Shown: piece by piece, positions 27,292-58,911 of the stretch
How the letters are laid out: every line of letters starts with the position of its first letter
Position numbering within the stretch: position 1 is the first letter of the stretch
Assembly (NCBI GenBank): GCA_020523885.1
Contig: JAJAPY010000003.1
Coordinates: forward strand, 186,001 to 250,000
Reading direction: 5' to 3'
DNA length: 64,000 nt
Source of the DNA: Candidatus Liberimonas magnetica
GTDB lineage: Bacteria; Elusimicrobiota; Endomicrobiia; Endomicrobiales; JAFGIL01
Made by a program: the position numbers and the translations under genes
Notes under the pieces: model-generated
What the model was told of the DNA's origin: nothing
Database searches by the model: none
What the model saw: only the letters and a program-made list of their open reading frames with translations

Positions 27292-28524
27292 TTAAATATC
27301 TTTCTTCGGGCTTGACATTCCTGTATTTTCGTTCGGCAGTCTAATAATGACTTCGCATCCCTGCCCCGGTTTACTTTTGATCTCTATTGAACCGCCGTGA
27401 TTTTGCACGGTCCCGTATGAAACAAACAAGCCAAGCCCCGTACCGGGCACAGTTCCGCTCCCGATGGAACCCTTGGTAGAATAAAAAGGTTCAAAAACCC
27501 TTTTCTGGCTTTCTTCGTCCAAACCTTTGCCCGTATCAAAAAAAGATATCTCTATGAAACCATCTGTTTTAGAAACACTGATTATCAAGTCACCGCCGTT
27601 TGGAGACATTGCGTCATTTGCATTCATTATTAAGTTTAAAAAAACCTGCTGCATTTCGTCTTTGTTAACAGAAACAGTAAAAGACGGGCTTTCATATTTT
27701 TTTATGATACTAATATTGTTCTTTTTCAAAAACCTTCCCGTGATCACAAGGACAAAATCTATCAGATCCGTAAGATTACAAAGCTCTATATTGATCCTTT
27801 CCTGCCTGGAAAATACCAATAAGTTCCTTACTATTTTTACCGCTTCTTCAGAAGTTTCAGTGATGACTGACAAAGCTTCTTCCACCTCTTTGGATGTTTT
27901 GGCTTTTTTTGCCCGTTCAATGTACCCGTTTATGACCTGCAGCATATTATTGAATTCATGAGCCACACCCGCTGCAAGCGTACCGATGCCGGCCATCTTT
28001 TCTTTTCTAATAAGCTCTTTTAAGAATCTGTCCTTTTCATTTAAGGTACGTTTGTGAAGCTCTTCAATACCTACGGCAGATGCTATTATCCCCATTATCA
28101 ATTTATCATCTTCGTTAACTTCATAACTTTTACAATAAAGCACGCACATTGTCCCGATTATTTTATTGCCTATTTCAACTTTATGACCTATATATGTTTC
28201 CAGTTTTAATTTTTTCACGCCCGCATCTGTTAAATTATATTTTGTTTTAGAAAGGTTGTTTACTATAAATATTTTATCTTTTTCGTTTTTTATCAGGTCA
28301 TAACATATATGGCCTTTTGCTTTGCTCCTGGGATTAGAAACATCGGGCACATTCCACTTGCCAATGGTAACGAGCATATCATCTTCAAGGACATTATATA
28401 GGGCATAGTCTGCGTTCATAAGTTCGCCGCATAAGTTGATAAGGCTGTCAATGTTCTTATCCGGATTGGAAACGAAATTAATAAAACATTTGTTTATCTT
28501 TACGATCTTTTCTTCAATTTTCAT
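27292..28524 (-). CDS. Soluble GAF-domain sensor histidine kinase
   Basis: 410 residues without membrane segments, so a cytoplasmic sensor. A GAF domain (about 10-155) is followed by a HisKA dimerisation helix with 'AAGVAHEFNNMLQVI' (His189) and an HATPase domain with the N-box 'NLIMNANDAM', 'FFDTGKGLDEE', and 'GTGLGLFVSYGTV'. The HEFNN-type H-box is typical of kinases paired with NtrC-family regulators. It is divergent from the sigma-54-like gene and the NtrC-type regulator, its most likely partner. The C-terminus ends about 50 residues after the last G-box. Confidence 0.88.
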   Translation of the reverse strand: MKIEEKIVKINKCFINFVSNPDKNIDSLINLCGELMNADYALYNVLEDDMLVTIGKWNVPDVSNPRSKAKGHICYDLIKNEKDKIFIVNNLSKTKYNLTDAGVKKLKLETYIGHKVEIGNKIIGTMCVLYCKSYEVNEDDKLIMGIIASAVGIEELHKRTLNEKDRFLKELIRKEKMAGIGTLAAGVAHEFNNMLQVINGYIERAKKAKTSKEVEEALSVITETSEEAVKIVRNLLVFSRQERINIELCNLTDLIDFVLVITGRFLKKNNISIIKKYESPSFTVSVNKDEMQQVFLNLIMNANDAMSPNGGDLIISVSKTDGFIEISFFDTGKGLDEESQKRVFEPFYSTKGSIGSGTVPGTGLGLFVSYGTVQNHGGSIEIKSKPGQGCEVIIRLPNENTGMSSPKKDI

Positions 28525-28685: not shown

Positions 28686-29747
28686 ATGAAAATTAAATTA
28701 AAACAAAGCACCGGATCCAAATTAAAGCAGAATATCTATGAAAAGATGCGCTTTTCTGCGTTTATGAAGAGTGACGAAAAAGAATTCGTGGATTTTATCA
28801 ATAAAGTTGAAAATGACCCGCTGTTCAAAAAACTGTGCTTCTCCAAGGACAGAGACCAAAGAATAATCAGTTTAAAAAAATTCCACAGAAACAACTATTT
28901 GTCCTATTCCAATGAACTTAAGATCAATTTCGAAAAAGACGGCACGTTTTACGATATCGGCTCGCTGATAAACAATAAGGCTGCAGCAAAGATACAAAAA
29001 CTGGGATTAAAGAATTTTGAGAAGTATTTTCTATTTGACGAAGATAGGCTTTTATCAGATAGGGAGATCAGCAGAAAATGTAAAATACCTGAACCTGACG
29101 TAAAAGAAATTAAAGGCCTTGTCGATGAATTATCCGTGCGGTCGGAATTTTATTTTCCATCAAATATAACTGTCAGCCCGGGCATTAATTCCTATAAAAT
29201 AGCTGTAATAGACAATATTTCAGGAAAATTACGCACAATTTTTTGTTCACTAAAATTTGTGCAGGGGACTTATGTTATTAATTATTCAAAGCTTGAATCA
29301 TTGAAAAAACAATCAGTTTTTAGTATAATTGAATACAAAAAAATTACGGAACTATTAAAAGACCTGGAGTTGATTAATAAAAGAAAATCAACGATTCAAA
29401 AGATATTGGATTTTATTATTGAAAAACAAGAAGATTATTTAGTATCCGGTAATGGTTCCAAACTAAAGCCCTGTACTCAAAGAGAATTAGCTCATGAAAT
29501 CAACATCGATGAAAGTGTAGTGAGCAGGGCCGTTTACGGAAGGAGCATCCAAATACCGGACGGTTCCGAAAGACCTCTAAATTTTTTCTTCCCGAGCAGA
29601 ATAGATGTTTGTAAAAACATTCTCAGAAATATAATGACAGATAATAAAATCGATTGCTCAGATAAAACGTTCTGCCACATCCTTAGAGATGAGTACGGGA
29701 TCAATATTTCAAGAAGAACGGTCTCCTACTGCAGGAAACACATGTAA
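28686..29747 (+). CDS. Divergent, short sigma-54 (RpoN-like) factor
   Basis: 353 residues, shorter than ordinary RpoN (about 430-500). The C-terminal half is clearly sigma-54: 'RKSTIQKILDFIIEKQEDYL', the helix-turn-helix segment 'CTQRELAHEINIDESVVSRA' (about 263-282) followed by 'PLNFFFPSRI', and a terminal RpoN box 'ISRRTVSYCRKHM' matching ARRTVAKYR. The N-terminus lacks the Gln-rich start of region I, keeping only a vague match ('DFINKVENDPLFKK', compare ELEENPLLE), and the acidic region II is short. Region I contacts the activator, so its divergence may mean a dedicated activator; the adjacent NtrC-type gene, 12 bases downstream, is the candidate. No ribosome site is visible. Confidence 0.82.
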   Translation: MKIKLKQSTGSKLKQNIYEKMRFSAFMKSDEKEFVDFINKVENDPLFKKLCFSKDRDQRIISLKKFHRNNYLSYSNELKINFEKDGTFYDIGSLINNKAAAKIQKLGLKNFEKYFLFDEDRLLSDREISRKCKIPEPDVKEIKGLVDELSVRSEFYFPSNITVSPGINSYKIAVIDNISGKLRTIFCSLKFVQGTYVINYSKLESLKKQSVFSIIEYKKITELLKDLELINKRKSTIQKILDFIIEKQEDYLVSGNGSKLKPCTQRELAHEINIDESVVSRAVYGRSIQIPDGSERPLNFFFPSRIDVCKNILRNIMTDNKIDCSDKTFCHILRDEYGINISRRTVSYCRKHM

Positions 29748-29759
29748 AGGACTAAAATA

Positions 29760-31133
29760 ATGGACGACAAAGCAACCATTCTTGTTGTTGATGATGAAGA
29801 AAACATGAGAGAGTCCTACAATATTATTCTTAAGGATAAGTACAATGTCCTTTTAAGTGCCGGCGGAAAAGAAGCGCTGGAGATATTGAACCGCGAACAG
29901 GTTGACATTGTTCTTTTGGATATTCTTATGCCTGATATGGACGGTATTGAGGTACTTAAAGAGGTTAAAAAGAACCACGATACCGAAGTTATCATGATCA
30001 CTGCTGTAAACGCAGTGAAAACAGCTATCCAGGCTATTAAGTCCGGAGCCTACGATTATATCCCTAAACCGTTTGAAGTAGCTGATTTATTGGCAGTAAT
30101 ACAAAAAGCTTTAGAGAAGCGTGATCTGACAAGGGAAATAATCTATTTAAAATCTGAGTTAGAACAATATACATTTGAAAATATGCTGGGCAACAGTAAG
30201 CAAATGCTTGGGCTTTTCGATTTGATCTCGCAGGCAGGACAGAATCAATCTACGATACTGATCTCCGGAGAAAGCGGCACAGGCAAAGAACTGGTTGCGC
30301 GGGCGATCCATAAAAACGGGACAAGGAAAAACAAGCCGTTTATCGCAGTAGACTGTTCAGCTATCCCGGAAAACCTTGTTGAAAGCGAGCTTTTCGGGCA
30401 TGAGAAAGGGGCCTTTACTGATGCCACGGTCCAAAAGCTTGGTAAATTCGAACTGGCAGGCCAGGGCACGATATTCCTGGACGAAATAGGCAACCTGCCT
30501 CTTGATATACAGAGTAAAATACTCAGAGCCATAGAGTCCAGGGAAATAACACGGGTAGGGGGTAATAAAACCATTAATATCGGGGCAAGAATAATCACTG
30601 CCACAAATATCGATTTAACAAAAGCCATTAAAGACGGGAAATTCAGGGAGGATCTTTATTATAGGCTGAATGTTATACCTATATTAGTTCCGCCTCTCCG
30701 GGACAGGAAAGAAGACATACCCTTGCTGATTGAACACTTTATCGGGTATTTTAACAAAATACTCAAAAAAAATGTTAAAGGGATATCAAAGGAAGCATTA
30801 CAACTTATGATGAAATATAACTGGCCCGGGAATGTAAGGGAATTACGTAATATAATAGAAAGGCTGGTAGCATTGGGCAGCGAGGATACTATATCGCATA
30901 CGCGCTTACCGTTCGAGATTTTGTTAAGTGAAGAAAATGCTGTTTCATCTCAGGAGCTGAATTCATTGAAAAAGGCTCGTGCTGAGTTTGAAAAACGCTT
31001 TATTTTAAAAGTATTAGAAAAAACCAACTGGAATCAAACAAAAGCCGCTAAACTGCTCAACATTCACAGGAACGCCTTAATATATAAAATAAATGTTTTA
31101 AACCTCCGCCCCAAATTTCACAATTCAAAATAG
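29760..31133 (+). CDS. NtrC-family sigma-54-dependent response regulator
   Basis: 457 residues with the standard three domains: receiver (1-120, phospho-acceptor Asp54 in 'VLLDILMPDMDG'), AAA+ ATPase (about 140-380; Walker A 'GESGTGKE', Walker B 'GTIFLDEIGN', 'WPGNVRELRN'), and a Fis-type helix-turn-helix at the end ('KAAKLLNIHRNALIYKI'). The sigma-54-contacting loop reads GAFTDA (217-222) instead of the canonical GAFTGA. It activates transcription at -24/-12 promoters by remodelling sigma-54 polymerase. It is co-transcribed with the divergent sigma-54-like gene and ends 94 bases before a -24/-12 promoter. Confidence 0.93.
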   Translation: MDDKATILVVDDEENMRESYNIILKDKYNVLLSAGGKEALEILNREQVDIVLLDILMPDMDGIEVLKEVKKNHDTEVIMITAVNAVKTAIQAIKSGAYDYIPKPFEVADLLAVIQKALEKRDLTREIIYLKSELEQYTFENMLGNSKQMLGLFDLISQAGQNQSTILISGESGTGKELVARAIHKNGTRKNKPFIAVDCSAIPENLVESELFGHEKGAFTDATVQKLGKFELAGQGTIFLDEIGNLPLDIQSKILRAIESREITRVGGNKTINIGARIITATNIDLTKAIKDGKFREDLYYRLNVIPILVPPLRDRKEDIPLLIEHFIGYFNKILKKNVKGISKEALQLMMKYNWPGNVRELRNIIERLVALGSEDTISHTRLPFEILLSEENAVSSQELNSLKKARAEFEKRFILKVLEKTNWNQTKAAKLLNIHRNALIYKINVLNLRPKFHNSK

Positions 31134-31153: not shown

Positions 31154-31179
31154 GTTTTTGTGCTCCTTGCACAAAAAAC
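31154..31179. promoter_or_regulatory. Palindromic upstream activator site candidate
   Basis: GTTTTTGTGC (31154-31163) and GCACAAAAAAC (31169-31179) form an inverted repeat centred about 87 bases upstream of the predicted sigma-54 start. The absence of a T-run argues against a terminator for the upstream gene. The TTTGTGC half-site recurs before the second -24/-12 promoter. Confidence 0.55.
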
Positions 31180-31226: not shown

Positions 31227-31242
31227 TGGCAATAAATTTGCA
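31227..31242 (+). promoter_or_regulatory. Sigma-54 (-24/-12) promoter of the radical SAM locus
   Basis: TGGCAATAAATTTGCA fits the TGGCAC-N5-TTGCA consensus, with GG and GC exactly at the required 12-base separation. Predicted transcription start is 31253, 85 bases before the first radical SAM gene. No sigma-70 promoter is evident in this gap. Confidence 0.8.
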
Positions 31243-31337: not shown

Positions 31338-32744
31338 ATGAAGATTCTATTAATAACACCTAAAAGCAAATCAGGGACCACAGAAAAGGAGTTTTGGGAT
31401 TACGAATTTATGTCTTTGATTATTGGAGAAAAACAGCATAGTCTTGCATCCCTGGCCCTGCCTACCTTAGCAGCATTAACCCCTCCAGACGTTCAAGTGG
31501 AAATAAATGACGAAAATATTGAAAATATAGATTTTAATTCTACTGCAGACTTAGTAGGCATAACAACTAATACTCATTTATCTTTAAGGGCCTATGAAAT
31601 CGCGGATCTGTTCAGAGAAAAAGGCAAAAAAGTAGTACTTGGAGGAATTCATGCTTCAATGTTGCCTCAAGAAGCGATCAAGCATTCAGATGCGGTCGTA
31701 ATAGGTGAAGCTGAAAATACCTGGGCAGGCTTGGTTGATGATTTTAAAAATAATAAATTAAAAAAATATTATGAGTCTTCCAGCAGGCCTGAGTTATCAA
31801 ACCAGCCTTTTCCGCGATGGGATCTGGTCCATACAGATAAATACGCTCTAATTTCATTGCAGACCACAAGGGGATGCCCTTATGACTGTGAATTTTGTTC
31901 CGTAAAAGCATTTTCCGGGTTAAGTTACCGGCGGAAACCGATCGAAAGCATATTAAGGGAAATTGAGTTGATTTCCAAAAAAGGGAAAAAACTTATTTTT
32001 TTTGCTGATGACAATTTAATCGGGCATAAAGAATTTGGGAAAGAACTGGTTGAAGGAATTACTCCGTATAATATTGCTTATAGTGCTCAATCTTCAATTG
32101 ATATAGCTCATGATGAAAATATGCTAAAGCTTATGGCAAAAAGCGGCTGTAAAAAAGTAATAATAGGATTTGAATCTTTATGCGAGGCAAATCTAAAGCA
32201 GCTTAATAAGGCCAAAGCCTATAAATCTGACAAATATATTAATGACATAGAAAAAATACAGTCCTATGGCATTGAGGTAAAGGGTTCTTTTATTGTTGGC
32301 TGTGATTTCGATGATGAATCCGTATTCGAAAAAACTGCGAATTTTATTGAGTCCTCCGGGATAGCTTCGGTTGTAATAAATATTCTTACACCGTACCCGG
32401 GAACACGCCTTTTTAGCAGGTTTGAACAAGAAAATAGACTCATTCATAAAGATTGGTCTAAATATGATAACAGTCATGTTTGTTTTTATCCTAAATTAAT
32501 GAGCCCTGAAGCACTTCAAAACGGCTATAACTGGTTAATAAGAAAGATATTTTCCTATGATTCTATTTTTAAAAGAATGAATGATTTATGGATGTTGTGG
32601 GACAAGTACGGAGTAAGGCGGCGGGACAGGGTGTCACCGCTTTTAGTAAATTTAAGTTCTCACGACATAGCTCAAAGCTATCCTAGGGGAGTCCATCCTG
32701 CCTTATCATTAAAAAAGTTAGCAGTAGGAGGAGTTGATGAGTAA
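31338..32744 (+). CDS. B12-binding radical SAM protein with DUF4070-like C-terminus
   Basis: 468 residues. An N-terminal cobalamin-binding Rossmann domain (1-150; 'VVLGGIHASMLPQEA') is followed by a radical SAM barrel with the [4Fe-4S] motif CPYDCEFC at about residues 180-187. The C-terminal part ('RKIFSYDSIFKRM') resembles DUF4070, the extension seen in hopanoid methylases such as HpnP. Such enzymes use cobalamin and SAM for methylation or other radical steps on unactivated carbon, often on lipids. First gene after the sigma-54 promoter; its end overlaps the ketosynthase start. Substrate not predictable. Confidence 0.85.
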   Translation: MKILLITPKSKSGTTEKEFWDYEFMSLIIGEKQHSLASLALPTLAALTPPDVQVEINDENIENIDFNSTADLVGITTNTHLSLRAYEIADLFREKGKKVVLGGIHASMLPQEAIKHSDAVVIGEAENTWAGLVDDFKNNKLKKYYESSSRPELSNQPFPRWDLVHTDKYALISLQTTRGCPYDCEFCSVKAFSGLSYRRKPIESILREIELISKKGKKLIFFADDNLIGHKEFGKELVEGITPYNIAYSAQSSIDIAHDENMLKLMAKSGCKKVIIGFESLCEANLKQLNKAKAYKSDKYINDIEKIQSYGIEVKGSFIVGCDFDDESVFEKTANFIESSGIASVVINILTPYPGTRLFSRFEQENRLIHKDWSKYDNSHVCFYPKLMSPEALQNGYNWLIRKIFSYDSIFKRMNDLWMLWDKYGVRRRDRVSPLLVNLSSHDIAQSYPRGVHPALSLKKLAVGGVDE

Positions 32745-34017
32745 TAGAGTGGTTATTACAGGTTTAGGTATCATTGCTCCAAACGGAGTGGGGAAAGATA
32801 ATTTCTGGAAATCGACTTGTTCGGGTATATCCGGGATAAAAAAAGTCTCTCGTTTCGATACTCACGACTGCCCTACTAACATAGCAGGAGAAATCGATGA
32901 TTTCGAGCCTAAGGAATATATGGAGAAAAAAACAGCTAACCATTTAAGCAGGTTTGCCCAGTTTGCATTAGCCGCTTCTAATATGGCAATCGAAGACGCC
33001 AAAATTAATATTTCACTGGAGGATCCTTATCGTATCGGCATAGCGATAGGTAATACAATCGGCGGTAAAGAAGTAGACGAAAAACAGCAGAGAGTTTCCA
33101 GCGAAAGCGGCTGGTCAAAAATTCACCCGTTTTCGGTGTCTCTAATCAGCAACAGTTATGCGGTGGGCGCTGTTGCTTCCGAACTGGGTATCAGGGGGCC
33201 GAATAATACATTCAGTACAGGATGTTCCTCAGCTTCATCAGCAATCGTTTACGGATTTGACAATATAAAAAATGGAACTGCGGATATTTTCCTATCAGGC
33301 GGAACAGAGGCTCCGCTGGTGCCTTTTGTCTTTAACGCATTTTGCGCATCAGGGGTGCTTAGTCAAAATAACGGCGACAGGCCCGGATCGGCAAGCAGGC
33401 CTTTTGACAAAAAAAGAAACGGTTATGTTCTTTCTGAAGGCTGCGGAATTGTGATATTGGAAAGTTTAAACCATGCGGTTAAAAGAAAAGCAAAAATATA
33501 TGCCGAGATAGGGGGGTATGGAGTTACCAATGATGGTTATAACTTGGTAAAAATGGAACCTACCGGCCGGGATGCTGCAAGGGCGATAAAAATCGCATTA
33601 AATAACAGTAATGTAAAGCCGACTGATGTGGATTATATTAATGCACACGGGAGCTCTTCTCAAGTCTCCGATAAAAGAGAAACCAGCGCCATAAAACAGG
33701 TTTTCGGAGAATATGCATATAAGATTCCAATCAGCTCTGTAAAATCAATGGTTGGACAGGCTTTAGGAGCATCAGGCGGGATACAGGTAATAGCAACAGC
33801 CCTATCGATTTACAATTCGAAGATATCACCTACAATTAATTACGAAGAGCAGGACCCCGAGTGCGATCTGGACTATACCCCAAATAAACCGAGGACCTAT
33901 CAAACAAATACTGCGCTTATCAACTCGTTTGGCCTCGGCGGGAACAATGTTTCAATGGTTATGAAAAAGTATTCAGAACCAAAAGCAAGTTTCCCCTGGG
34001 CACTAAATCTTTTTTGA
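32737..34017 (+). CDS. Beta-ketoacyl synthase (FabF-like) with His-to-Gln change
   Basis: 427-residue frame; the ATG at 32737 lies five bases after GGAGG, and the TTG at 32734 would be too close. The fold is FabF/KAS II. The catalytic triad should be Cys-His-His: Cys163 ('STGCSSAS') and His304 ('NAHGSSS') are present, but the second histidine (usual 'KSMxGHxxGAxG') is Gln341 ('KSMVGQALGASG'), read directly as CAG at 33757. That His normally assists malonyl decarboxylation, so the enzyme may only transfer or condense without decarboxylation, or use an unusual extender. No acyl carrier protein or reductase is adjacent. It overlaps the previous gene by 8 bases. Confidence 0.88.
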   Translation: MSNRVVITGLGIIAPNGVGKDNFWKSTCSGISGIKKVSRFDTHDCPTNIAGEIDDFEPKEYMEKKTANHLSRFAQFALAASNMAIEDAKINISLEDPYRIGIAIGNTIGGKEVDEKQQRVSSESGWSKIHPFSVSLISNSYAVGAVASELGIRGPNNTFSTGCSSASSAIVYGFDNIKNGTADIFLSGGTEAPLVPFVFNAFCASGVLSQNNGDRPGSASRPFDKKRNGYVLSEGCGIVILESLNHAVKRKAKIYAEIGGYGVTNDGYNLVKMEPTGRDAARAIKIALNNSNVKPTDVDYINAHGSSSQVSDKRETSAIKQVFGEYAYKIPISSVKSMVGQALGASGGIQVIATALSIYNSKISPTINYEEQDPECDLDYTPNKPRTYQTNTALINSFGLGGNNVSMVMKKYSEPKASFPWALNLF

Positions 34018-34036
34018 AAAAATGTGAGGTATACAA

Positions 34037-35461
34037 ATGAAAATATTATTAGTATTGCCGCCAAGTAAAAGGCTTATCGGAATTCAAGAACAAATCTTCC
34101 CTGTAGGATTAGGGTATTTGGCTGCTGTTTTGGAAAAAGAGGGCTATGATGCTCATATTTACAACATAGATATGGATCCTAATGAAAATAATTTCGAACT
34201 AAATGCAGCTTTAAACAGTGAAGAACACCTAAAGGCAAATTACCAAATGCATAAAATTGAAGCTGAGTTAAATAATGATAGCCATATTGTATGGCACGAA
34301 ATATTTGAAACATTAAATATTTATATACCTGATATTGTTGGAATTTCAGTTACAACTATGACTTTTAAAGCGGCATTGAAAGTTGCAGAAATTTGCAAAA
34401 AATGGAAACCTGATGTTAAAATCGTATTTGGAGGGCATCATCCGACTATTGATTCGGAAATGACTCTGATGAACAATGATGTAGACTTTGTTATAAGGGG
34501 CGAAGGTGAAGAAACTTTAAAAGAGCTGGTTAACAAAATAAATCAAAAAAGCGATAATTTTAGTGAAATTGATGGCCTCTCATTTAAATTGGATGGAAAG
34601 ATAATTCATAATAGAAATAGAGGTTTAATAAATGATTTAAATACAATACCATATCCAGCCAGGCACTTGCTCATAAATAAAAACAAATTCCCCGATCTTT
34701 TTACTAAAAATTCCGTAATGGGTATAGGAAGAGGCTGCCCATGGAAATGTACCTTTTGTTCCAGCTCAGCAATATGGGGAAGGAATGTTCGAATTAGGAA
34801 TATTAGCAATATAATTGGCGAAATAAGAATGCTTGTTGATAAGTATGGAGCGCAAAAAATATCTTTTTATGATGATACATTTAGTGTCAATAAGGATTTT
34901 GTATCAAGTTTATGTGAAAGAATAATTGATGAAGGAATAAAAATAAAATGGATATGTCTAAGCAGGGCGGATTGTTTAGATGATAAAATAATCAGGCTTA
35001 TGAAAAAAGCAGGATGTATTGCGATTGCGCTTGGCGTAGAATCTGGCAGTGATAAAATATTGGAATTTTTAGACAAGAAAGAGGATTTAGAAAAAATTAA
35101 AGCGGTTTCAAAGTTGATAAAGTCCAATGGTATCTGGCTTACTACATTTTTTATGATTGGGATTCCAACCGAGTCGAAAAATGACATAGAAAAATCCCTG
35201 AATTTAATGAAAGAAGTCGGCCCTAATGAGATTTATTTGTCTTCTTTTAAGGCGAATCCTGGAACAATGGCCTTTGAATACATTGTAAATAATAAAATAA
35301 TGTCTCAAAATGAATTAATGAACACTAATTCTGACATATATAGAAATCATAAATTTATGGACAATATAAGCAGGGAAGAATATAAGAATATTTTTGATAA
35401 TGCTTATAATTTTATTAGCGAATATAACAGAAATTATAAAATTCAAGCTAGACATAATTAA
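34037..35461 (+). CDS. B12-binding radical SAM protein
   Basis: 474 residues. Cobalamin-binding domain at about 1-190 with 'PDVKIVFGGHHPTIDSE' and 'VIRGEGEETL', then a radical SAM domain with CPWKCTFC (about 235-242) and 'GVESGSDKILEFL'. The family, with BchE-type layout, includes methylases and cyclases. It lies 19 bases after the ketosynthase gene, with GTGAGG as ribosome site. It has low similarity to the 550-residue pair downstream, so it is probably a different step of the same pathway. Confidence 0.87.
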   Translation: MKILLVLPPSKRLIGIQEQIFPVGLGYLAAVLEKEGYDAHIYNIDMDPNENNFELNAALNSEEHLKANYQMHKIEAELNNDSHIVWHEIFETLNIYIPDIVGISVTTMTFKAALKVAEICKKWKPDVKIVFGGHHPTIDSEMTLMNNDVDFVIRGEGEETLKELVNKINQKSDNFSEIDGLSFKLDGKIIHNRNRGLINDLNTIPYPARHLLINKNKFPDLFTKNSVMGIGRGCPWKCTFCSSSAIWGRNVRIRNISNIIGEIRMLVDKYGAQKISFYDDTFSVNKDFVSSLCERIIDEGIKIKWICLSRADCLDDKIIRLMKKAGCIAIALGVESGSDKILEFLDKKEDLEKIKAVSKLIKSNGIWLTTFFMIGIPTESKNDIEKSLNLMKEVGPNEIYLSSFKANPGTMAFEYIVNNKIMSQNELMNTNSDIYRNHKFMDNISREEYKNIFDNAYNFISEYNRNYKIQARHN

Positions 35462-35489
35462 TTTAACGTTATAAGGAGGAATCTTATCC

Positions 35490-36050
35490 ATGCAGTTTAC
35501 TTTAATTGCTCCCATTGTACTATTCTTAGTAGGTCTTATTCATCTATTTGAAACATTTTATTTAGAAAAAAACAAAGAAAAAGGAAAAACCTATGCAAAA
35601 TGGACATTGCCGGCTCTAAGTATGGGTTTTGTTCTTGTGCTTGCTAGCAGCCTGAGTGAATTTTATTCGGTAAACCGAACAATTGATTCTATTATTTCAG
35701 GGATGGGCCTTTTGATAACATTGATTAGGATTCCTATTAAACTTTGGGCAGCAAAAACTTTGGGTCAATACTGGAGCCCACATGTAAAGATACGTAGTAA
35801 CCATATGGTAATAAAATCTGGACCGTATAAGTATCTGCGTCATCCTGTATACTTCGCAGCTTCAATGGAATTGGTAGGGATACCTTTGTTTGTTAATGCA
35901 TATTATACTTTAGTTTCTACATCACTGGTGCTGGTTTCATTAATTGTAGCGCGTATGTATATCGAAGAAAAAGTATTATTAGCAGAATTAGGTGAACAAT
36001 ATATTGAATACAAAAAAGAAACATGGGGTATGATCCCATTGATACATTGA
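35490..36050 (+). CDS. ICMT/PEMT-like membrane methyltransferase
   Basis: 186 residues with about five membrane segments. The cytoplasmic C-terminal part has the isoprenylcysteine carboxyl methyltransferase pattern: 'GPYKYLRHPVYFA' followed by 'EEKVLLAELGEQYIEYKK', the SAM-binding RHPxY and EExxL signature. Bacterial members methylate lipids or small isoprenoid-like substrates; protein prenylation is not expected here. The ribosome site AAGGAGG is strong. Same operon as the radical SAM genes (29 bases downstream of the previous gene). Confidence 0.85.
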   Translation: MQFTLIAPIVLFLVGLIHLFETFYLEKNKEKGKTYAKWTLPALSMGFVLVLASSLSEFYSVNRTIDSIISGMGLLITLIRIPIKLWAAKTLGQYWSPHVKIRSNHMVIKSGPYKYLRHPVYFAASMELVGIPLFVNAYYTLVSTSLVLVSLIVARMYIEEKVLLAELGEQYIEYKKETWGMIPLIH

Positions 36051-36141
36051 TTTTTATTAAACAATTCTTTAATAAAATCTTAGAAATGAAAATAGCAAAA
36101 ATGGGATATAATTAATATCTACAAACAATATTTAAATTAGG

Positions 36142-36168
36142 TGCCACCTACGCGGTGGAACATGGTTC
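36142..36168. repeat. Copy of the 'CCACCTACGCGGTGG' hairpin
   Basis: GCCACC and GGTGG enclose TACGC, followed by AACATGGTT. The same sequence, with its middle reversed (GCGTA), forms the strong terminator at 46065-46100. The outer arm is not complementary here and there is no T-run. It lies in the 154-bp gap before the ThiF-like gene, which otherwise holds only an AT-rich stretch with a TATAAT-like word. Confidence 0.55.
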
Positions 36169-36204
36169 AAAAGTTAGCGAAATTAATAAGAGAGGGATTA
36201 CATT

Positions 36205-36978
36205 ATGACCAAAAGCTTTAGCAGGAATATCGGACTAATATCCGAGAAAGAACAGGATAAACTTCAAAATTCAACAGTTGCTATAGCAGGGGTTGGAGGA
36301 GTCGGAGGGTTCCCTGCAGAACGTTTAGCCCGTTTAGGTATTGGGCATTTGAAAATAGCGGACCCGGAAAGTTTTTCCGAAACCGATATTAACAGGCAGT
36401 TCGGAGCTACAAAGGAAACCATAGGTAAAAAGAAAGTAGACGTAATTGAAAAATTAGTAAAAGAAATAAACCCGGACATAGTTGTCAATAAATTCGGCGA
36501 CGGTATTAAGGAAAATAATGTTAATGAATTCCTCAAGGGGACCGATCTCGTCATAGACGCTATAGAATTTTTTATATTTGGACCAAGAATGTTGTTATAC
36601 CCAAAGGCCAGAAAAACAGGGAAGATTATTCTGCTTTCAGGAGCGGTCGGCTTCGGCGCACCTCTTTTTGTGTTCTCGCCCGAAGGCATGACTATGGAAG
36701 AATATTTTAATGTCCCCAAGGACAAAAACAGACTTGATAAATTTCAGATCCCTCTAAATAAAATGTGCCCGGTTGCCTTAGACTATATACCAAAAGAATT
36801 GATAGAAGACATTTATAAAGGAAAACACCATGTACCTACCTTAAGCCCTATATGCGCATTGGCCGGCAGCCTGTTAGCTATGGAAACGGTATTCAGGCTT
36901 CTTGGTAAAAGAACTGGTGGCTATGTCCCTTATCATACTTATATCGATTTATATAAACAAGAATTAATAATTCTATAA
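36205..36978 (+). CDS. E1/ThiF/MoeB-like adenylyltransferase
   Basis: 257 residues. The N-terminal Rossmann motif 'VAIAGVGGVGGFPAERLARLGIG' and 'DPESFSETDINRQFGA' are those of ThiF/MoeB/ubiquitin-E1 enzymes (the Asp and Arg bind ATP). They activate a carboxyl end by adenylation, usually of a small protein, sometimes of an amino acid or peptide. The CxxC zinc pairs common in ThiF are absent and there is no rhodanese domain. There is no ubiquitin-like or precursor-peptide gene nearby. It sits between the methyltransferase and the tandem radical SAM pair. Ribosome site GAGAGGG. Confidence 0.85.
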   Translation: MTKSFSRNIGLISEKEQDKLQNSTVAIAGVGGVGGFPAERLARLGIGHLKIADPESFSETDINRQFGATKETIGKKKVDVIEKLVKEINPDIVVNKFGDGIKENNVNEFLKGTDLVIDAIEFFIFGPRMLLYPKARKTGKIILLSGAVGFGAPLFVFSPEGMTMEEYFNVPKDKNRLDKFQIPLNKMCPVALDYIPKELIEDIYKGKHHVPTLSPICALAGSLLAMETVFRLLGKRTGGYVPYHTYIDLYKQELIIL

Positions 36979-37002
36979 TTGACAAATTACAAGGCGGCCT
37001 TT

Positions 37003-38655
37003 ATGTCTACAAAAAGTATTTTGATAAATTACGGTGGATATCCGCGTTCAACGCGCAACTTTGTTCCTGACAACGGAGTTGCTTCTTTAGCCGGGGCACT
37101 ATTGGCTAAAGGACACACGACTACGATATTAGACTATTCTACAGTAGATATTGTTAAGAGAATATTTCCTCACCAATATAAAGATGAATTGGAAAAAATA
37201 ACGGAAAGAATAAAAATACATATTAGACAAGGAATTGATCCTGATAGAAAAGATTTGGAAGCTTTTCGCTTTATTGATAACCTGATAGAAAAATATGAGT
37301 ATGATAAAATGCTTGAAATTGCGCAGGAAATTTTTGAATATATTGAGTCTCATAAAGTTGATTTTGTCGGTATAAAATTATTTTTAGGCGATTCCTTTGA
37401 AGGTTCTGTCAGGATTGCTCAATACCTGAAAATAAAGAAGCCCGGGCTGCCTATTTTTGCAGGCGGGCCCCATGTTGATGCTTTTATGTCGAGAATATTT
37501 GATATAACAAAAGTATTTGACGTTCTCGCTTACGGTGAAGGCGAAGAAACAATATTTATGCTGGCAGAATTTGTTGAAGGAAAGAAAAGGCTTGAAGAGA
37601 TACCAAATATATTGTATCGTTCAGGCACAAAAGTGGTAATCAATCCGATGAAAAGAATCGAAGATTTGAATGCATTACCTTATCCCGTATATGATGAAGA
37701 AATTTATCCAGCTATGAAAGGCGACCAGAAAGTTAAGGTGATACTTATTGACGAAAGCAGAGGATGCCCGAATGCATGCAATTTCTGCTGCCATCCGTCT
37801 AAAAGCGGGAAAAAGGTACGGGTACGCAACCACAAGACAGTTGTTGATATTATGGAATCAATGAAGACAAAACATGACATAAAAGCATTTCGTTTTGCCG
37901 GCTCAAGCCCGCCTCCGGTGCATAAAAAACTTATTGCGCAAGAGCTATTAGATAGGAAATTAGATTTTCAATACACTACCTTTTGTGCTGTTAAAGGGGG
38001 TAAACTGGAAGATTTTGAGCTTTTGAAAAACTCGGGATGTTTTGCTATACTTTTTGGCATTGAATCAGGCAGCCAGGAAATCTTAAATAGAAGCATGAAC
38101 AAGAACGTAACCCTGGAGCAAGTCAAAAACGCTGTTGCCTTGTGCAAGAAATCCGGCATAGCAACCGTAGGAAGCGTTATAGTGCCGGCACCTTTTGAAT
38201 CCGAGGTAACAAAAAACGAAACATTGAATTTACTTAACGAGCTTGTCCTTGATTCAACTACTGTCTGTTTACCTACGCCTATCCCTGGTACAAAATGGGG
38301 AGATGACTTATTGAAATATAATTTTAACATTCCAGATGAGCGGCAATTCTGGAAAGATGCAATTGTTTTTAACTTAAAAAACTATTATCCGCAATTCTTG
38401 TGGAAACCGATGCCCGGCTACCGGCTTAATAATAAGCCGTTTAACGAAATAGCCCAAGAGACATCAGAGTTTGTGCGGAAATTAGAAAGCAGAGGATTAA
38501 CAACTCAAGCCAGCGATGAGATACTTCTTTTAGCGCATTATGCAGGGCTTTCCACAAGAGAATTCAGGGATAAAAATGACCAGTATTTCAGCGAAGGTAA
38601 TTACCAGGCTATCAGCCGAATGGTAAGCGGTATAAACAAAAATATTCTAAACTGA
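37003..38655 (+). CDS. B12-binding radical SAM protein, tandem paralogue 1
   Basis: 550 residues from ATG 37003 (AAGGCGG upstream; the open frame reaches back to a TTG at 36979 directly after the ThiF-like stop). This start matches the start of the paralogue. An insertion-rich N-terminal cobalamin-binding part (1-235; 'LPIFAGGPHVDAF', 'AYGEGEETI') precedes the radical SAM motif CPNACNFC and 'GIESGSQEILNRSM'. About 100 extra C-terminal residues follow ('KPMPGYRLNNKPFNEI'). It shares most of its length with the next gene, so the pair arose by tandem duplication. Confidence 0.86.
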   Translation: MSTKSILINYGGYPRSTRNFVPDNGVASLAGALLAKGHTTTILDYSTVDIVKRIFPHQYKDELEKITERIKIHIRQGIDPDRKDLEAFRFIDNLIEKYEYDKMLEIAQEIFEYIESHKVDFVGIKLFLGDSFEGSVRIAQYLKIKKPGLPIFAGGPHVDAFMSRIFDITKVFDVLAYGEGEETIFMLAEFVEGKKRLEEIPNILYRSGTKVVINPMKRIEDLNALPYPVYDEEIYPAMKGDQKVKVILIDESRGCPNACNFCCHPSKSGKKVRVRNHKTVVDIMESMKTKHDIKAFRFAGSSPPPVHKKLIAQELLDRKLDFQYTTFCAVKGGKLEDFELLKNSGCFAILFGIESGSQEILNRSMNKNVTLEQVKNAVALCKKSGIATVGSVIVPAPFESEVTKNETLNLLNELVLDSTTVCLPTPIPGTKWGDDLLKYNFNIPDERQFWKDAIVFNLKNYYPQFLWKPMPGYRLNNKPFNEIAQETSEFVRKLESRGLTTQASDEILLLAHYAGLSTREFRDKNDQYFSEGNYQAISRMVSGINKNILN

Positions 38656-38667
38656 CAGGAATTTAAT

Positions 38668-40320
38668 ATGTCGACAAAGAGTCTATTGATAAACTTTTCA
38701 GGCTACCCTAATGAACCATACAGCTTTGTGCCGGACAACGGCCTTGCTAATTTGGCTGCGTGTTTGATAAAAGCAAATCATTCTACAATTATTTGGGATT
38801 ATTCGAAAGTAGATATTATAAATAACTTATTTCCGTATCAGTATAATAAGTTATATCAAGATGCACTGATAAAAATAACAAGTAATTTAAAAAGTGGAGA
38901 CAATCTTTCAGGAAAAGATTTATACGAATTTCATAAATTGGAAGACGAAATAGACGCTTTTCAACATGAGAAAATGAATGAAATTGCCATTGAATTAAGC
39001 AGTTATATCGGCAAAAACTCTATAGATTTTGTCGGCATGAAATTGTGGACAGGCTTGGGATTTTATGGTGCGATGATAATTGCTAAACAGATAAAAAAAG
39101 ACCATCCAAATATCCCTATTTTCGGCGGGGGGCCGCATGTCGATTGGTTTAAGGAAATGATCTATAAAGTTACCGACGTGTTTGATGCTTTGGTGTACGG
39201 GGACGGCGAAGAAGTTATTGTAAAATTGGCAGAGCATGTGCAGGGGAAGACAAAACTTAAAGATATTCCGAATCTAATTTATAGAGAAAATGGCAGCATA
39301 TTGACTAATCCTGTAAAATGGATAGAAAATCCGGACGAACTGCCTATGCCTGTATATGACGAAGACGTTTATCCTGCCATGAAAGGAGACCAGAAAGTAA
39401 AAGTTTTTTTAGTTGATGAAAGCAGAGGGTGCCCAAATTCTTGCAGTTTTTGCATACATTCAAGAAAAGACAAAAAAAAATGGGTGACAAGAGATGCGAA
39501 TAAATTTGTTGATCAAATTGAATACCTGTCTAAAAAATACAAGGCCAGAGCTTTCAGGTTTGCCGGCACAAATACACCGCCTTCTTTTATGAAAAGCATT
39601 GCGCAAGAAATACTTAAAAGAAACCTGTCTATTATTTATTCATCCTTTATGCATGTGAGAGGCGTGTCAAAAGATTTTTTTGAGCTGCTAAAAAAGTCAG
39701 GTTGCTCTGCCCTCGCCTTCGGAGTTGAATCCGGAAGCCAAAGGATTTTAAATGAATGTATGGATAAAAAAGTGTCTGTTGAACAGATAAAAAGTGCAGT
39801 CATTTTATGTAAGCAGGCAGGTATTAAAACCGTTGTGAGTTTAATAGTTCCTGCTCCTATGGAAACCGCAGTAACACAAGAGGAGACGATGCAGTTATTG
39901 CTCGAACTTAAACCGGATTCAACTGTTGTATTTTTCCCAACATTGATTTTAGGCACAAGATGGGAAAGAGAATATGAAAAATACGGATTTACTATTAAAA
40001 ATCGGGAAGATGTTTTTAAAATAGCAATGACCCACAGGGTTAATCACTTATGCCCGCCTTTATTATGGCGCGATTTGTCCGGTTATTCATTAGACGGTAA
40101 AACATTTAAGGAACTTGGAGCGGAAACTTCAAGGTTTGTTCAAAAATTAAAGAACAGCGGTTTGGTTACGCAATTATTTGACAGCACGCTTTTAATAGCA
40201 GATTATGCCAGAATACCGCCAGGAGAACTGGCTAATCAAACTCATTCTTTTCTTTCAACCGGCGATTATGCTGCAATGGGAAAACTCATCTCTTCAATTA
40301 ATTCCTGCATGGTCAATTAA
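38668..40320 (+). CDS. B12-binding radical SAM protein, tandem paralogue 2
   Basis: 550 residues. It begins MSTKSLLINFSGYP, parallel to MSTKSILINYGGYP of the gene before it, and keeps matching blocks throughout: 'GGGPHVDWF', 'DEDVYPAMKGDQKVKV', the cluster motif CPNSCSFC, 'GVESGSQRILNECM', and a similar C-terminal extension. Both copies keep all cluster cysteines, so both should be active, perhaps in successive radical steps or on related substrates. It is the last gene of the sigma-54 locus. Confidence 0.86.
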   Translation: MSTKSLLINFSGYPNEPYSFVPDNGLANLAACLIKANHSTIIWDYSKVDIINNLFPYQYNKLYQDALIKITSNLKSGDNLSGKDLYEFHKLEDEIDAFQHEKMNEIAIELSSYIGKNSIDFVGMKLWTGLGFYGAMIIAKQIKKDHPNIPIFGGGPHVDWFKEMIYKVTDVFDALVYGDGEEVIVKLAEHVQGKTKLKDIPNLIYRENGSILTNPVKWIENPDELPMPVYDEDVYPAMKGDQKVKVFLVDESRGCPNSCSFCIHSRKDKKKWVTRDANKFVDQIEYLSKKYKARAFRFAGTNTPPSFMKSIAQEILKRNLSIIYSSFMHVRGVSKDFFELLKKSGCSALAFGVESGSQRILNECMDKKVSVEQIKSAVILCKQAGIKTVVSLIVPAPMETAVTQEETMQLLLELKPDSTVVFFPTLILGTRWEREYEKYGFTIKNREDVFKIAMTHRVNHLCPPLLWRDLSGYSLDGKTFKELGAETSRFVQKLKNSGLVTQLFDSTLLIADYARIPPGELANQTHSFLSTGDYAAMGKLISSINSCMVN

Positions 40321-40347
40321 TCCTTTTTTTAAACTCACATAATATGA

Positions 40348-40445
40348 TATAATTCTCTTTAGTAAATACGTGCTTATGCGGTGCAATAAGACGTCTTATA
40401 TAACCTCCCCGCAGCAAACTACGGGAAATAGTCAGGTTTAATTAA
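40348..40445 (+). promoter_or_regulatory. Extended -10 promoter and structured leader of a sensor kinase gene
   Basis: TGATATAAT (40345-40353) is an extended -10 box with predicted start near 40361. The leader of about 100 bases contains the palindrome ATAAGACGTCTTAT, CCCCGCAGCAAACTACGGG and a following TAGTCAGG. These words partly resemble cobalamin-riboswitch and c-di-GMP-I cores but do not fit either class completely. No obvious ribosome site precedes the ATG. Confidence 0.4.
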
Positions 40446-40460
40446 ATAAATACCCGAATT

Positions 40461-42629
40461 ATGAATAATAAATATCTGCAGGTATCAAAATACATCGGAA
40501 TATCTCTTGCAATTGGAGTATTTATATACGCTCTTTTTTTTGTCGGTAAGGCTAACCCACATTCTATTCCCTGGTTTCTATCTTTTATCTTTAATGCATT
40601 CCTATGTATTTTTGTATATCTCAATAACCGGTTTAACAAAGTTAACAGGATATTCACCATATTTAATTTATGTGGTACTCTATGGATTTTGGGGGCATTT
40701 ATCCTGCATATAGCACCCAGCGAAAGATTTGCATATAATTATACCCGGTTCTTTTCTATCGGTATGATTTTTATTCCTCCGACATTTTTACATTTTGTTA
40801 TTATTCTTACCCAGAGCAAGAACCTAACATTAAAGAAAGCCCTTAATATTGCATATATCTTTGCAGTTATATTATATGTTTTAAGCCTTAACGGCTTATT
40901 TGTTAAGGAATTTACGTGGATTGGCTGGAAGTATTATCCGCAGCCGTATATTGTTTATAAATTTTATATAATTAACTTTGTTTTCTGGATGATATTTTCA
41001 TTACTACACGTCTTTCGCAGTTACAAAAATGCGAAATCATATAAAATCAAGAATCAGCTTAAATATTTTTTCTTAGCTATTTCGGTAGGTACATTTTTCG
41101 GGTCAATGAATCTACTAACCTCCTTTGGTTTTAAAATATACCCTATAGGAGGTTTTGCAAATATCATTACACCTGCAATTTTGGCATACGCTATTGTTAA
41201 GCATCAGCTTCTTGATATTCAGGTAATTATCCGAAAAAGCGCTATCTATGGTACTTTAACTATATCATTAATAGGTATTTATGCGCTTATAGTAGGCGGT
41301 TTAACTGCTGTTTTTGGAGTAGTAGGACATTCTGGCAGTTGGTTCATCAACGGAATAGCTGGCCTTTCCATAGCTGTTCTGTTTTTACCGATGAGAGAAA
41401 AAATACAGCTTGTTATAGATAAATTATTCTTTAAAGTCAGGTATGATTATCATCAGACCCTATCGAATCTAAGCGCAGAGCTGACTTCCATAATCAGGCT
41501 GGAGAATTTGCTTGAATTATTGGTTACTCAGGTCGTAGAAACAATGCAGGTTCAAAAAGGATTTATAATGCTCTTTGACAGACAAAAAGAAGTTTTTAGT
41601 ACAATTAGCCAGCTGGGCATGGATAAGGAAGCTATTTTAAATTTTTCTATTGATAAAAATGATAAGTTTATTTCTTTTCTTGCCAAAAACAAGAAAATAG
41701 TTTATCTGGATGAAATACAAGACAGTTTTGTTGTGCCTTTAAAACAGTTGACTATGTCCTTATGCGTGCCTCTCATCACAAAAGGCAATTTAGTGGGCAT
41801 TTTAAATCTTGGTTATAGATTATCCGAGGACCAATACACAAAAGAAGATATAGAGCTCCTTACAACAATATCCAATCAAGCAGCCATCGCAGTTGAGAAT
41901 GCACAATTACACAGACAAATAATGGATACGGAAAAGGACCTTCTATCCTCAGATAAGTTCTCAGCTTTGGACACTTTCGCGGCAAACATAGCGCACGAAA
42001 TAAAAAATCCTCTTACTTCCATAAAAACATTCTGCCAGCTCCTTTACGATAAATTCAATGATAAATTATTCGTTGAAAAATTTAACAGCATAATCCCAAA
42101 AGAAATAGAACGTTTAGAAAACGTGCTGGAGAATATGCTGCATTTTAATAAAACCTTAAATGTCTCATTCGGCAAGGTGGACATTAAGCAGGTACTTGAG
42201 GAATTGATAGGTTTGTTATATTACGAGATCTATAAACAAAATATAGCGTTAAAAAAACAGTATCCCGAAACTTCTTTGGAAGTAAAAGGGAACGCAGAAC
42301 AATTAAAACAAGTCTTTATGAACCTGATATTGAACTCCATACAGGCTATGCCAAAAGGAGGCAGTTTATCTATCTCTATCAAAGAACTCATGGAAGACAA
42401 GAATAATACTCAATTTATTGAAGTTTCAGTTACAGATACAGGCTGCGGAATACCTAAAGAATCTTTGAATAAACTCTTTAAACCTTTTTATACAACTAAA
42501 CCAAAAGGTACAGGTTTAGGCCTATCTATAACCCGCAAGATCGTAAGAGAACATGAAGGGACAATAAGTGTAGAGAGCATACCTAATAGCGGGACCACCT
42601 TTATAGTTAAACTGCCTGTTTACCAATAG
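40461..42629 (+). CDS. 7TM-GAF sensor histidine kinase
   Basis: 722 residues. The first 320 or so contain about eight hydrophobic helices, the layout of the 7TM histidine-kinase N-terminal sensor. A GAF domain follows (about 340-490), then HisKA with 'AANIAHEIKNPLTSIKTF' (His512) and HATPase with 'NLILNSIQAMPKGG', 'VTDTGCGIPKE' and 'GTGLGLSITRKIV'. It senses an unknown membrane-linked or intracellular signal. The next genes are a response regulator and a hybrid kinase, separated by their own sigma-54-type promoter. Confidence 0.9.
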   Translation: MNNKYLQVSKYIGISLAIGVFIYALFFVGKANPHSIPWFLSFIFNAFLCIFVYLNNRFNKVNRIFTIFNLCGTLWILGAFILHIAPSERFAYNYTRFFSIGMIFIPPTFLHFVIILTQSKNLTLKKALNIAYIFAVILYVLSLNGLFVKEFTWIGWKYYPQPYIVYKFYIINFVFWMIFSLLHVFRSYKNAKSYKIKNQLKYFFLAISVGTFFGSMNLLTSFGFKIYPIGGFANIITPAILAYAIVKHQLLDIQVIIRKSAIYGTLTISLIGIYALIVGGLTAVFGVVGHSGSWFINGIAGLSIAVLFLPMREKIQLVIDKLFFKVRYDYHQTLSNLSAELTSIIRLENLLELLVTQVVETMQVQKGFIMLFDRQKEVFSTISQLGMDKEAILNFSIDKNDKFISFLAKNKKIVYLDEIQDSFVVPLKQLTMSLCVPLITKGNLVGILNLGYRLSEDQYTKEDIELLTTISNQAAIAVENAQLHRQIMDTEKDLLSSDKFSALDTFAANIAHEIKNPLTSIKTFCQLLYDKFNDKLFVEKFNSIIPKEIERLENVLENMLHFNKTLNVSFGKVDIKQVLEELIGLLYYEIYKQNIALKKQYPETSLEVKGNAEQLKQVFMNLILNSIQAMPKGGSLSISIKELMEDKNNTQFIEVSVTDTGCGIPKESLNKLFKPFYTTKPKGTGLGLSITRKIVREHEGTISVESIPNSGTTFIVKLPVYQ

Positions 42630-42717: not shown

Positions 42718-42742
42718 ATCTTTGTGCATAATGCATAAAGAT
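42718..42742. promoter_or_regulatory. Palindromic upstream activator site candidate
   Basis: ATCTTTGTGCAT and ATGCATAAAGAT are 12-base arms around a single A, with one mismatch. It is centred about 76 bases upstream of the second predicted sigma-54 start. Another TTTGTGCA follows at 42742-42749. The half-site TTTGTGC is shared with 31154-31179. Confidence 0.5.
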
Positions 42743-42779: not shown

Positions 42780-42795
42780 TGGTAATCTTTTTGCT
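42780..42795 (+). promoter_or_regulatory. Second sigma-54-type (-24/-12) promoter
   Basis: TGGTAATCTTTTTGCT has GG and GC at the strict 12-base separation and matches the consensus except T for C after TGG. Predicted start is 42806, 32 bases before the response-regulator ATG. Confidence 0.6.
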
Positions 42796-42837: not shown

Positions 42838-43392
42838 ATGATTAACAAAAACGTATTGATTATTGATGACGAATGTGGCGTAAGAGAATCTTTATCTGTA
42901 GCTTTGCAGAACGATTGTAGAGTAACAACAGCAGAAAGCGGAGAAGAAGGACTGAAGCTTATTAAAGAGAACTTACCCGGCCTGGTAGTACTTGATATCA
43001 ATCTACCCGGAATGGATGGAATTGAGGCCTTAAGAAATTTCAGGATCATTGATGCTTCTTTGCCTGTAATAATGATATCCGGAATGGAAGAAATTAAAAA
43101 TATCGCAGCATCCTTTCGGTTAGGCGTCATAGACTTCTTCTGTAAACCTTTTAATATAAATGAATTTAGTAGAGTTGTTAATCAAGCCCTGAGCAAAGAG
43201 GAAGAAGCAAATACAAATAACGGAGAAAACACTGTTTCTTCCGGCCTTGACGACTTTATCGAAAAAAAAGTAGATACTGCGTTACAAGACAACCTTGAAC
43301 TAAAAGACGCTCTTAAAAGTTTCGACGACCAATTTGTCGATGAAATCTTAAATGGAAATATCCGCAATACCAATAAGAACCGGCCAAGTTAA
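42838..43392 (+). CDS. Response regulator, receiver domain with short C-terminal extension
   Basis: 184 residues from ATG 42838, which has AAAGGAG seven bases upstream; the frame could open earlier at 42745, but that would place the -24/-12 promoter inside the gene. Receiver domain 1-120 with Asp53 ('LVVLDINLPGMDG') and the conserved 'CKPF' lysine loop. The last 60 residues are acidic and helical without a DNA-binding fold, so output is probably through protein contact. It is followed by a hybrid kinase. Confidence 0.87.
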   Translation: MINKNVLIIDDECGVRESLSVALQNDCRVTTAESGEEGLKLIKENLPGLVVLDINLPGMDGIEALRNFRIIDASLPVIMISGMEEIKNIAASFRLGVIDFFCKPFNINEFSRVVNQALSKEEEANTNNGENTVSSGLDDFIEKKVDTALQDNLELKDALKSFDDQFVDEILNGNIRNTNKNRPS

Positions 43393-47289: not shown

Positions 47290-48141
47290 ATGAAAGGTTT
47301 ATTAAGATTAGTTGTAGTTTTTGTTCTGTCTTTAGGTTTGTTTAGTTTTGCTGGTGGAGATCAAAACTCCAAAAGAAAAACAATCACTATCAAGGGTTCT
47401 GATACGATGGTAATTTTGGGGCAGAGATGGGCGGAAGATTATATGAAATCCCATCCCGATATCATTGTACAAGTTACAGGAGGCGGTTCCGGGACAGGCA
47501 TCGCAGCTTTGATCAACGGGTCTACGGATATATGCCAGGCTTCAAGGCCTTTAAAAGATGAGGAAAATAAACTCATTATTCAAAAACGGGGTAAAGGGTC
47601 TAAGGAAATACCTGTAGCGCAGGATGGTATAGCTATATATTGCAACGAAAAAAATCCGGTAATTTCTTTAACCATAGAACAGCTGAAACAAATTTACCAG
47701 GGGAAAATAAATAACTGGTCGCAACTCGGCTGGGATAAAAAGGAAATAGTCCTCTATGGAAGAGAAAATAACTCCGGAACTTATACATACTTTAAAGAAC
47801 ATGTTCTAAAAGGCGAAGATTTCTATAATATGGTGCAGTCTTTACCCGGTACAGCAGCTGTTGTAAATGCGATCAGTAAAGATAAGTATTCTATAGGGTA
47901 CGGCGGAATGGCTTATGCAAAAGGTATTAAAGAAATCGGAGTAAAAAAAGATGATAAAAGCCCTGCCTTGCTGCCTTCAATCAAGAATATCGTATCTGGA
48001 GTATATCCTGTAAGCAGAAAATTATATTTTTATACGGTTGCTGAACCTGCGGGAGTTACAAAAGATTTTATAGAATGGGTTTTGGCTAAAGAAGGCCAAG
48101 AAATATGTCAGGAAGTCGGTTATGTCTGTTTAAAAAAATGA
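47290..48141 (+). CDS. pstS: Phosphate-binding protein PstS (operon 1)
   Basis: 283 residues with an N-terminal signal peptide ending near residue 23. Binds inorganic phosphate outside the cytoplasmic membrane for the Pst importer. Recognised by 'ITIKGSDTMVILGQRWAEDYM', 'VTGGGSGTGIAALINGSTDICQASRP' and 'YGRENNSGTYTYFKEHVL', the three phosphate-contact loops. Ribosome site AGGAGGG. Its stop overlaps the pstC start (ATGA). The phosphate regulon promoter lies upstream. It differs clearly from the second PstS at 57141, which suggests distinct affinities. Confidence 0.93.
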   Translation: MKGLLRLVVVFVLSLGLFSFAGGDQNSKRKTITIKGSDTMVILGQRWAEDYMKSHPDIIVQVTGGGSGTGIAALINGSTDICQASRPLKDEENKLIIQKRGKGSKEIPVAQDGIAIYCNEKNPVISLTIEQLKQIYQGKINNWSQLGWDKKEIVLYGRENNSGTYTYFKEHVLKGEDFYNMVQSLPGTAAVVNAISKDKYSIGYGGMAYAKGIKEIGVKKDDKSPALLPSIKNIVSGVYPVSRKLYFYTVAEPAGVTKDFIEWVLAKEGQEICQEVGYVCLKK

Positions 48142-49945: not shown

Positions 49946-49946
49946 T

Positions 49947-50726: not shown

Positions 50727-50734
50727 ACTAGGAG

Positions 50735-51586: not shown

Positions 51587-51595
51587 TGTTTTAAC

Positions 51596-51688: not shown

Positions 51689-51716
51689 AGTGACAATAAA
51701 TTTTAAGGAGAACTTC

Positions 51717-57947: not shown

Positions 57948-57966
57948 TTCAGCTTCAAAATTATTT

Positions 57967-58011: not shown

Positions 58012-58024
58012 ATTATTTATTAAA

Positions 58025-58906: not shown

Positions 58907-58911
58907 CGTTC

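Follow-up and report, generated by a model that had tools for sequence, protein, structure and literature searches.

A compact sigma-54 gene lies beside its own activator gene

We analyzed a 64,000-nt stretch of Candidatus Liberimonas magnetica DNA (positions 186,001 to 250,000 of contig JAJAPY010000003.1), hereafter the window, in which an ATG-initiated open frame at 28686–29747 (+) encodes a compact, divergent sigma-54 factor of 353 aa. Its stop codon lies 12 nt ahead of the ATG, at 29760, of a gene for an NtrC-type response regulator acting as an enhancer-binding protein (EBP; 29760–31133, +), an arrangement that a preceding sequence-only reading of this DNA had described correctly. By Pfam, the EBP contains a receiver domain whose Asp54 is intact in the alignment, an AAA+ domain (PF00158, 228 bits) and a Fis helix-turn-helix, and its translation carries the sigma-54 contact loop GAFTDA in place of GAFTGA (30408–30425, +). 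The GAFTDA loop of DVU2106 from Desulfovibrio vulgaris has been considered compatible with sigma-54 activation (PMC4641369). A divergent gene for a soluble histidine kinase with HisKA and HATPase domains (27292–28524, −, Pfam) likely encodes the partner of this EBP, and a histidine kinase gene accompanies many relatives of the sigma/EBP pair.

The C-terminal half of the sigma factor matches the Pfam model Sigma54_DBD (PF04552) over residues 228–353 with 66.9 bits (cut-off 22.8, E = 2.3e-18), and contains the two hallmarks that the sequence-only reading had named: the helix-turn-helix (residues 265–283, 29478–29534, +), with the invariant R281 in its SR(281) motif, recovered by the alignment, hhalign and the structural model, and the RpoN box SRRTVSYCRK (residues 342–351, 29709–29738, +), recovered by the translation, the alignment of relatives and hhalign. 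A profile of 19 relatives aligned with canonical RpoN in hhalign at 99.6% (E = 1.3e-24) from residue ~127 to the end, corresponding to the C-terminal two thirds, and a 17-sequence profile matched sigma-54 chains of the PDB by sequence. With 72.5 bits against a cut-off of 277.35 for the equivalog TIGR02395, the protein falls outside canonical RpoN.

Region I is rewritten rather than degraded

The N-terminus of the window sigma lacks a Gln-rich stretch, as the sequence-only reading had noted, but the conclusion it drew, that the activator-contact region is degraded, proved wrong. The rewritten region I (residues 1–51, 28686–28838, +) comprises predicted helices at residues 3–28, 31–42 and 45–51 with a conserved E..F..(11)E.DPLFKKL pattern, in which the signature E...E..PLF.K is invariant among relatives; residues E31, E42, P45, L46, F47 and K49 are invariant across 18–19 of them, and several of the best-conserved positions fall within the N-terminal 50 residues. 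In hhalign, the N-terminal profile of the relatives lies in register with canonical region I over 43 columns (score 16.7, E = 0.0039, hhalign probability only 8.6%), and the best of 60 column-shuffled controls reached 11.6. The N-termini of some relatives, MKQRLGMKL... or MKQHLGLRVEQRLA..., are near the MKQGLQLRLSQQLA of Klebsiella RpoN. These alignments indicate a region I that is rewritten and conserved, with a weak but in-register likeness to the canonical one. A loss of region I was ruled out by the alignments of relatives and the AlphaFold model.

The AlphaFold model begins with N-terminal helices (residues 3–28 and 31–42) and a short helix at DPLF, followed by a helical piece (97–154), a beta element, a predicted extra-long helix of 34 residues (214–247, 29325–29426, +), the helix-turn-helix and the C-terminal RpoN domain. 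All 24 Foldseek matches in the PDB at E <= 0.001 are sigma-54, and VIA-align placed model residues 12–353 on residues 11–465 of a solved chain with Z scores up to 15.1; the sigma-54 fold, including the extra-long helix and region I, is thus recovered in the model and its PDB matches. Because the model spans chain residues 11–465 and its residue ~94 aligns with residue ~207 of sigma-54 in solved open-complex structures, region I is kept, while, by the model, the protein has lost region II together with the N-terminal half of its core-binding domain (CBD), with helices 97–154 (28974–29147, +) forming the remaining C-terminal part of the CBD.

The missing N-terminal half of the CBD could point to a DNA-binding repressor or a decayed sigma-54 paralogue that has lost binding to RNA polymerase. 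We regard this as very improbable, given that full-length frames are conserved across the phylum, that a kept region I would be pointless in such a protein, and that the EBPs and −24/−12 promoters would have no other sigma-54 to use. The window protein is instead a functional-looking, strongly diverged sigma-54, which would bind core RNA polymerase and depend on ATP and an EBP.

The genome contains two compact modules and no canonical rpoN

The genome (3.39 Mb, 97.8% complete) contains exactly two sigma-54 DBDs, both belonging to compact factors, and a search across it for canonical rpoN, AID and CBD returned none. EBPs at E below 1e-60 number only two, each adjoining one compact sigma gene. 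The second, normal rpoN that the sequence-only reading proposed to look for is therefore absent, a coexisting normal rpoN being rejected for this genome at its completeness, and the second copy that does exist is also compact. Nor is the window gene a lone rpoN with a housekeeping-like phylogeny, the finding that would have spoken against that reading, since the two paralogues are both far from housekeeping RpoN.

Promoters and palindromes mark a probable local regulon

Downstream of the EBP gene lies a predicted target operon (31338–42629, +), supported by synteny in other genomes, with genes for B12-radical SAM proteins (starting at 31338, 34037, 36979 and 38668), a FabF-like ketosynthase (KS; 32734), an ICMT-like protein (35490), a ThiF-like protein (36205) and a 7TM-GAF histidine kinase (40461). 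The gap between the EBP gene and the first radical SAM gene contains a −24/−12 promoter, TGGCAATAAATTTGCA (31227–31242, +), 111 bp 5′ of the first cluster gene, which is the second-best −24/−12 match in the 64 kb and the best non-coding one. A second site, TGGTAATCTTTTTGC (42780–42794, +), lies 5′ of the predicted second target, a response regulator gene with its true start at 42838 (42838–43392, +), so that GG-N10-GC elements are found upstream of both targets.

Each promoter is preceded by a palindrome. TTGTGC-N5-GCACAA (31158–31174, +), a candidate EBP enhancer and the sole exact match in the window, lies 69 bp upstream of the 31227 site, and TTGTGC-N5-GCATAA (42722–42738, +), with one mismatch, lies 58 bp upstream of the 42780 site; only three palindromes with at most one mismatch occur in the window. 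Related KS clusters in four other genomes (L046, L093, L102 and L109) keep −24/−12 sites at their 5′ side, and similar palindromes lie 5′ of the KS promoters in L102, L109 and L093 (genomes G084, G090 and G007). The palindrome was not present at L046, L094 or the magnetosome promoters described below, and was found solely at KS-type promoters. The motif was chosen after viewing the first and some other copies, so its recurrence is not an independent test; the control is a background of 0.012 sites per 250 bp. In L102, a perfect hairpin with 19-bp arms, probably the terminator of the EBP gene, separates that gene from the KS promoter at 7450 (−), which it immediately precedes, and overlaps the palindrome.

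In a promoter scan near sigma/EBP genes, scored with hand-set weights, 16 of 276 upstream regions reached at least 13.3, compared with 0.85 in shuffles (maximum 4 of 200) and with two in the wrong orientation. Exact TGGCAN6TTGCW sites occur 14 times in the genome of the window: 11 are coding, and the three that are intergenic and oriented toward a gene all lie at the two sigma loci. A looser pattern matched 80 times against 47 in the reversed control, and among the 30 of these 80 sites inspected, three had a downstream gene, namely the window sites at 31227 and 42780 and a site at C2:299008. The proposal of a private sigma-54 for a local regulon stands in part: a local regulon beside its own EBP is well supported by the exact intergenic sites, confined to sigma loci, and by the upstream palindrome, but the factor is not an extra sigma next to a normal one.

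A sister module lies among magnetosome genes

The second sigma/EBP pair lies on another contig (C6:3974–23324; L092, L124 and L125) amid MamA-, MamE-, MamB/MamM-like and two MamQ-like genes, these names being the best NCBIfam assignments below equivalog cut-offs, and the source of this genome is probably a magnetotactic member of the Elusimicrobiota. Three near-identical −24/−12 sites with the extended consensus TGGCATWAAAGTTGC lie 5′ of the sigma gene, 5′ of mamQ-mamB and 3′ of the EBP gene. Candidatus Obscuribacterium magneticum has the same arrangement beside mam genes; there, a mamQ-like gene has such a site 88 bp upstream. The receivers of both magnetosome EBPs (L092:8324–9754 and L051:9116–10447) are without the phosphorylated Asp (VVLLARN and VVLLGMN, respectively), and the Obscuribacterium EBP also has no recognizable Fis helix-turn-helix and carries a GAFTDS loop. 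In the trees, the two magnetosome-linked sigmas pair with moderate support (85/86), as do their EBPs (100/99). Our literature search found no earlier report tying magnetosomes to sigma-54.

Compact sigma-54 prevails across Elusimicrobiota

Sigma-54 DBDs were found in 142 of 341 Elusimicrobiota genomes, and among the part of these inspected for length all factors are compact except one. This exception, in G002 (L008/L108, G002:C115), is a full-length RpoN with a CBD of 178 bits and a DBD of 171 bits, against at most 93 bits for the DBDs listed elsewhere; G002 is also the only one of the 341 genomes with a canonical AID above cut-off, and has no strong EBP. We considered whether it represents the ancestral form of the phylum; as a single case, it could be contamination, a transfer or a relic. 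The relatives were placed in Elusimicrobiota by record titles and taxonomy, a few loci aside. Compact loci also occur in metagenome-assembled genomes labelled 'Clostridia' (L045, L049, L058 and L065, with L045 close to L047), reflecting either mislabelling or inter-phylum transfer, and several compact frames in genus g58 (family f18) contain one or two internal stops, mostly TGA, and may represent pseudogenes, artefacts of frame calling or recoding. In family f6, neither sigma-54 DBDs nor strong EBPs turned up in any of the genomes searched, in agreement with Francke et al. (PMC3162934), who noted that Elusimicrobium minutum lacks sigma-54.

EBPs occur in 145 of the 341 genomes; sigma and EBP occur together in 140 (of the 142 with a sigma) and neither occurs in 194, a co-occurrence whose Fisher value overstates independence because the genomes share ancestry. 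The 235 sigma and 280 EBP copies give 1.19 EBPs per sigma (Spearman 0.67), several sigmas are present in 78 of the 142 genomes, and an EBP lies within about 5 kb in about 23 of the 27 sigma loci with enough flank. The window sigma and the window EBP each cluster with copies of the same two genomes, G004 and G007. Loops of EBPs beside compact sigmas read GAFTDA, GSFTDA, GAYTDA, GAFTGA or GSFTGA; we dropped the idea that GAFTDA matches the basic N-terminus of the sigma in charge, since GAFTGA and GSFTGA EBPs also adjoin compact sigmas.

These data bear on whether the rewritten region I still locks the transcription complex. In canonical sigma-54, region I imposes inhibition (PMC7057263), and with the AID unrecognized by Pfam the compact factors might transcribe constitutively, with weak or no dependence on an activator. 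Given that EBP presence follows sigma almost perfectly, and that strong conservation extends to the helices of region I and to its E...PLF.K signature, we consider such independence improbable.

The compact factors could also simply be the ordinary sigma-54 of the phylum, any sigma working with any EBP at any −24/−12 promoter, and adjacency reflecting operon inheritance only. The compact form is the sole type in the phylum save one genome, the TGGCA-N6-TTGC core is common to both loci, and in some genomes sigma and EBP numbers are unequal or the genes unlinked, all of which fits this explanation. Against it stand the ratio of about one EBP per sigma with several sigmas kept in 78 of 142 genomes, the co-inheritance of cluster-specific pair members, the extended consensus of the C6 promoters and the restriction of the palindrome to KS-type promoters. 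We regard it as plausible, if on balance doubtful.

A proposed local switch

We consider it quite probable that the window gene encodes a compact, enhancer-dependent sigma-54 that works with the adjacent EBP as a local switch for neighboring genes, as supported at the sequence level by the domains, the model, the absent canonical rpoN, the co-occurrence, the placement of promoters and palindromes, and co-inheritance. In the proposed mechanism, the divergent histidine kinase would phosphorylate the EBP, which would bind the TTGTGC-N5-GCACAA palindromes about 60–70 bp 5′ of the −24/−12 (TGGYA-N6-TTGC) promoters; its AAA+ ring would then act through the GAFTDA loop on polymerase-bound compact sigma, remodeling the rewritten region I and opening the promoters of the neighboring radical-SAM/ketosynthase operon and its response regulator. 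With no general RpoN, the genome would have two such modules, one for the window cluster and one within the magnetosome gene cluster, the assignment of each sigma to its promoters being a prediction.

Several observations weigh against this local switch. The profile search proposed by the sequence-only reading recovered the DBD of the window sigma, but Pfam AID (PF00309) and CBD (PF04963) gave no match; with half of the CBD absent, core binding by the compact sigma is not certain; and the model scores are middling (pLDDT 76.6, pTM 0.65). Furthermore, four well-covered sigma loci (L047, L050/L098, L093 and L100) have no adjacent EBP, the sigma tree leaves many of its inner branches open, and the promoter scan used hand-chosen weights.

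More broadly, we tentatively speculate, at somewhat less than even confidence, that Elusimicrobiota split a global sigma-54 into insulated modules, in which each sigma responds to its partner EBP alone, the two being matched by co-evolution of region I with the contact loop, and serves its home cluster alone, one module controlling magnetosome building via a cluster-encoded sigma and an EBP without the receiver Asp.

Elsewhere in the window, a 4189-aa open reading frame (2401–14970, −) looks like a fusion or mosaic, with HAD-phosphatase-, adenosine deaminase- and kinase-like stretches by eye, and two phosphate-uptake operons (47290–52388 and 57141–61399; PstS, PstC, PstA, PstB and PhoU-like proteins) with a PhoB/PhoR-like pair between them were recognized by eye from the translations.

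Comparison with known systems

The usual account of sigma-54 is of a single global factor with many activators. Nearly a whole phylum appears to have only a compact, rewritten form, with about one activator per sigma and local targets. This kind of system is known, but the literature searched gives no account of the compact form, of where it occurs or of how it is used. A natural minimal sigma-54 of about 350 aa offers a tool for asking which parts core binding, inhibition and activation require, natural sigma/EBP pairs allow one to ask if specificity can reside in region I and the GAFTGA loop, and the C6 pair is a concrete, testable candidate regulator of the magnetosome genes of a deep-branching phylum.

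The specialized rpoN paralogues of Rhodobacter sphaeroides and of rhizobial plasmids, which are not known to depart from normal full-length RpoN, resemble the compact factors in that a genome has several sigma-54 genes, each for one process. By contrast, the genome of the window contains compact copies only and lacks a general one. For Rhodobacter sphaeroides, four rpoN genes are reported in PMC12316311. The rpoN of Ponticoccus near a monooxygenase gene (L134) and that of Celeribacter near a sigma-54-interacting regulator (L130) likewise place sigma-54 beside a likely regulon or regulator, but these are unrelated full-length or moderately diverged alphaproteobacterial RpoN. DVU2106 shares the GAFTDA loop variant with the window EBP, but works with canonical RpoN.

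Compared with the canonical RpoN of E. coli, Klebsiella and Aquifex, the compact sigma shares the helix-turn-helix, the RpoN box, the extra-long helix, a two-helix region I, the −24/−12 spacing and, presumably, dependence on an AAA+ EBP. It differs in lacking a Gln-rich region I as well as region II and the N-terminal half of the CBD, in its length of 353 aa rather than ~430–480 and in its score below the TIGR02395 cut-off. Whereas canonical RpoN is one global factor served by many EBPs, the compact sigma occurs in several copies, each with an EBP.
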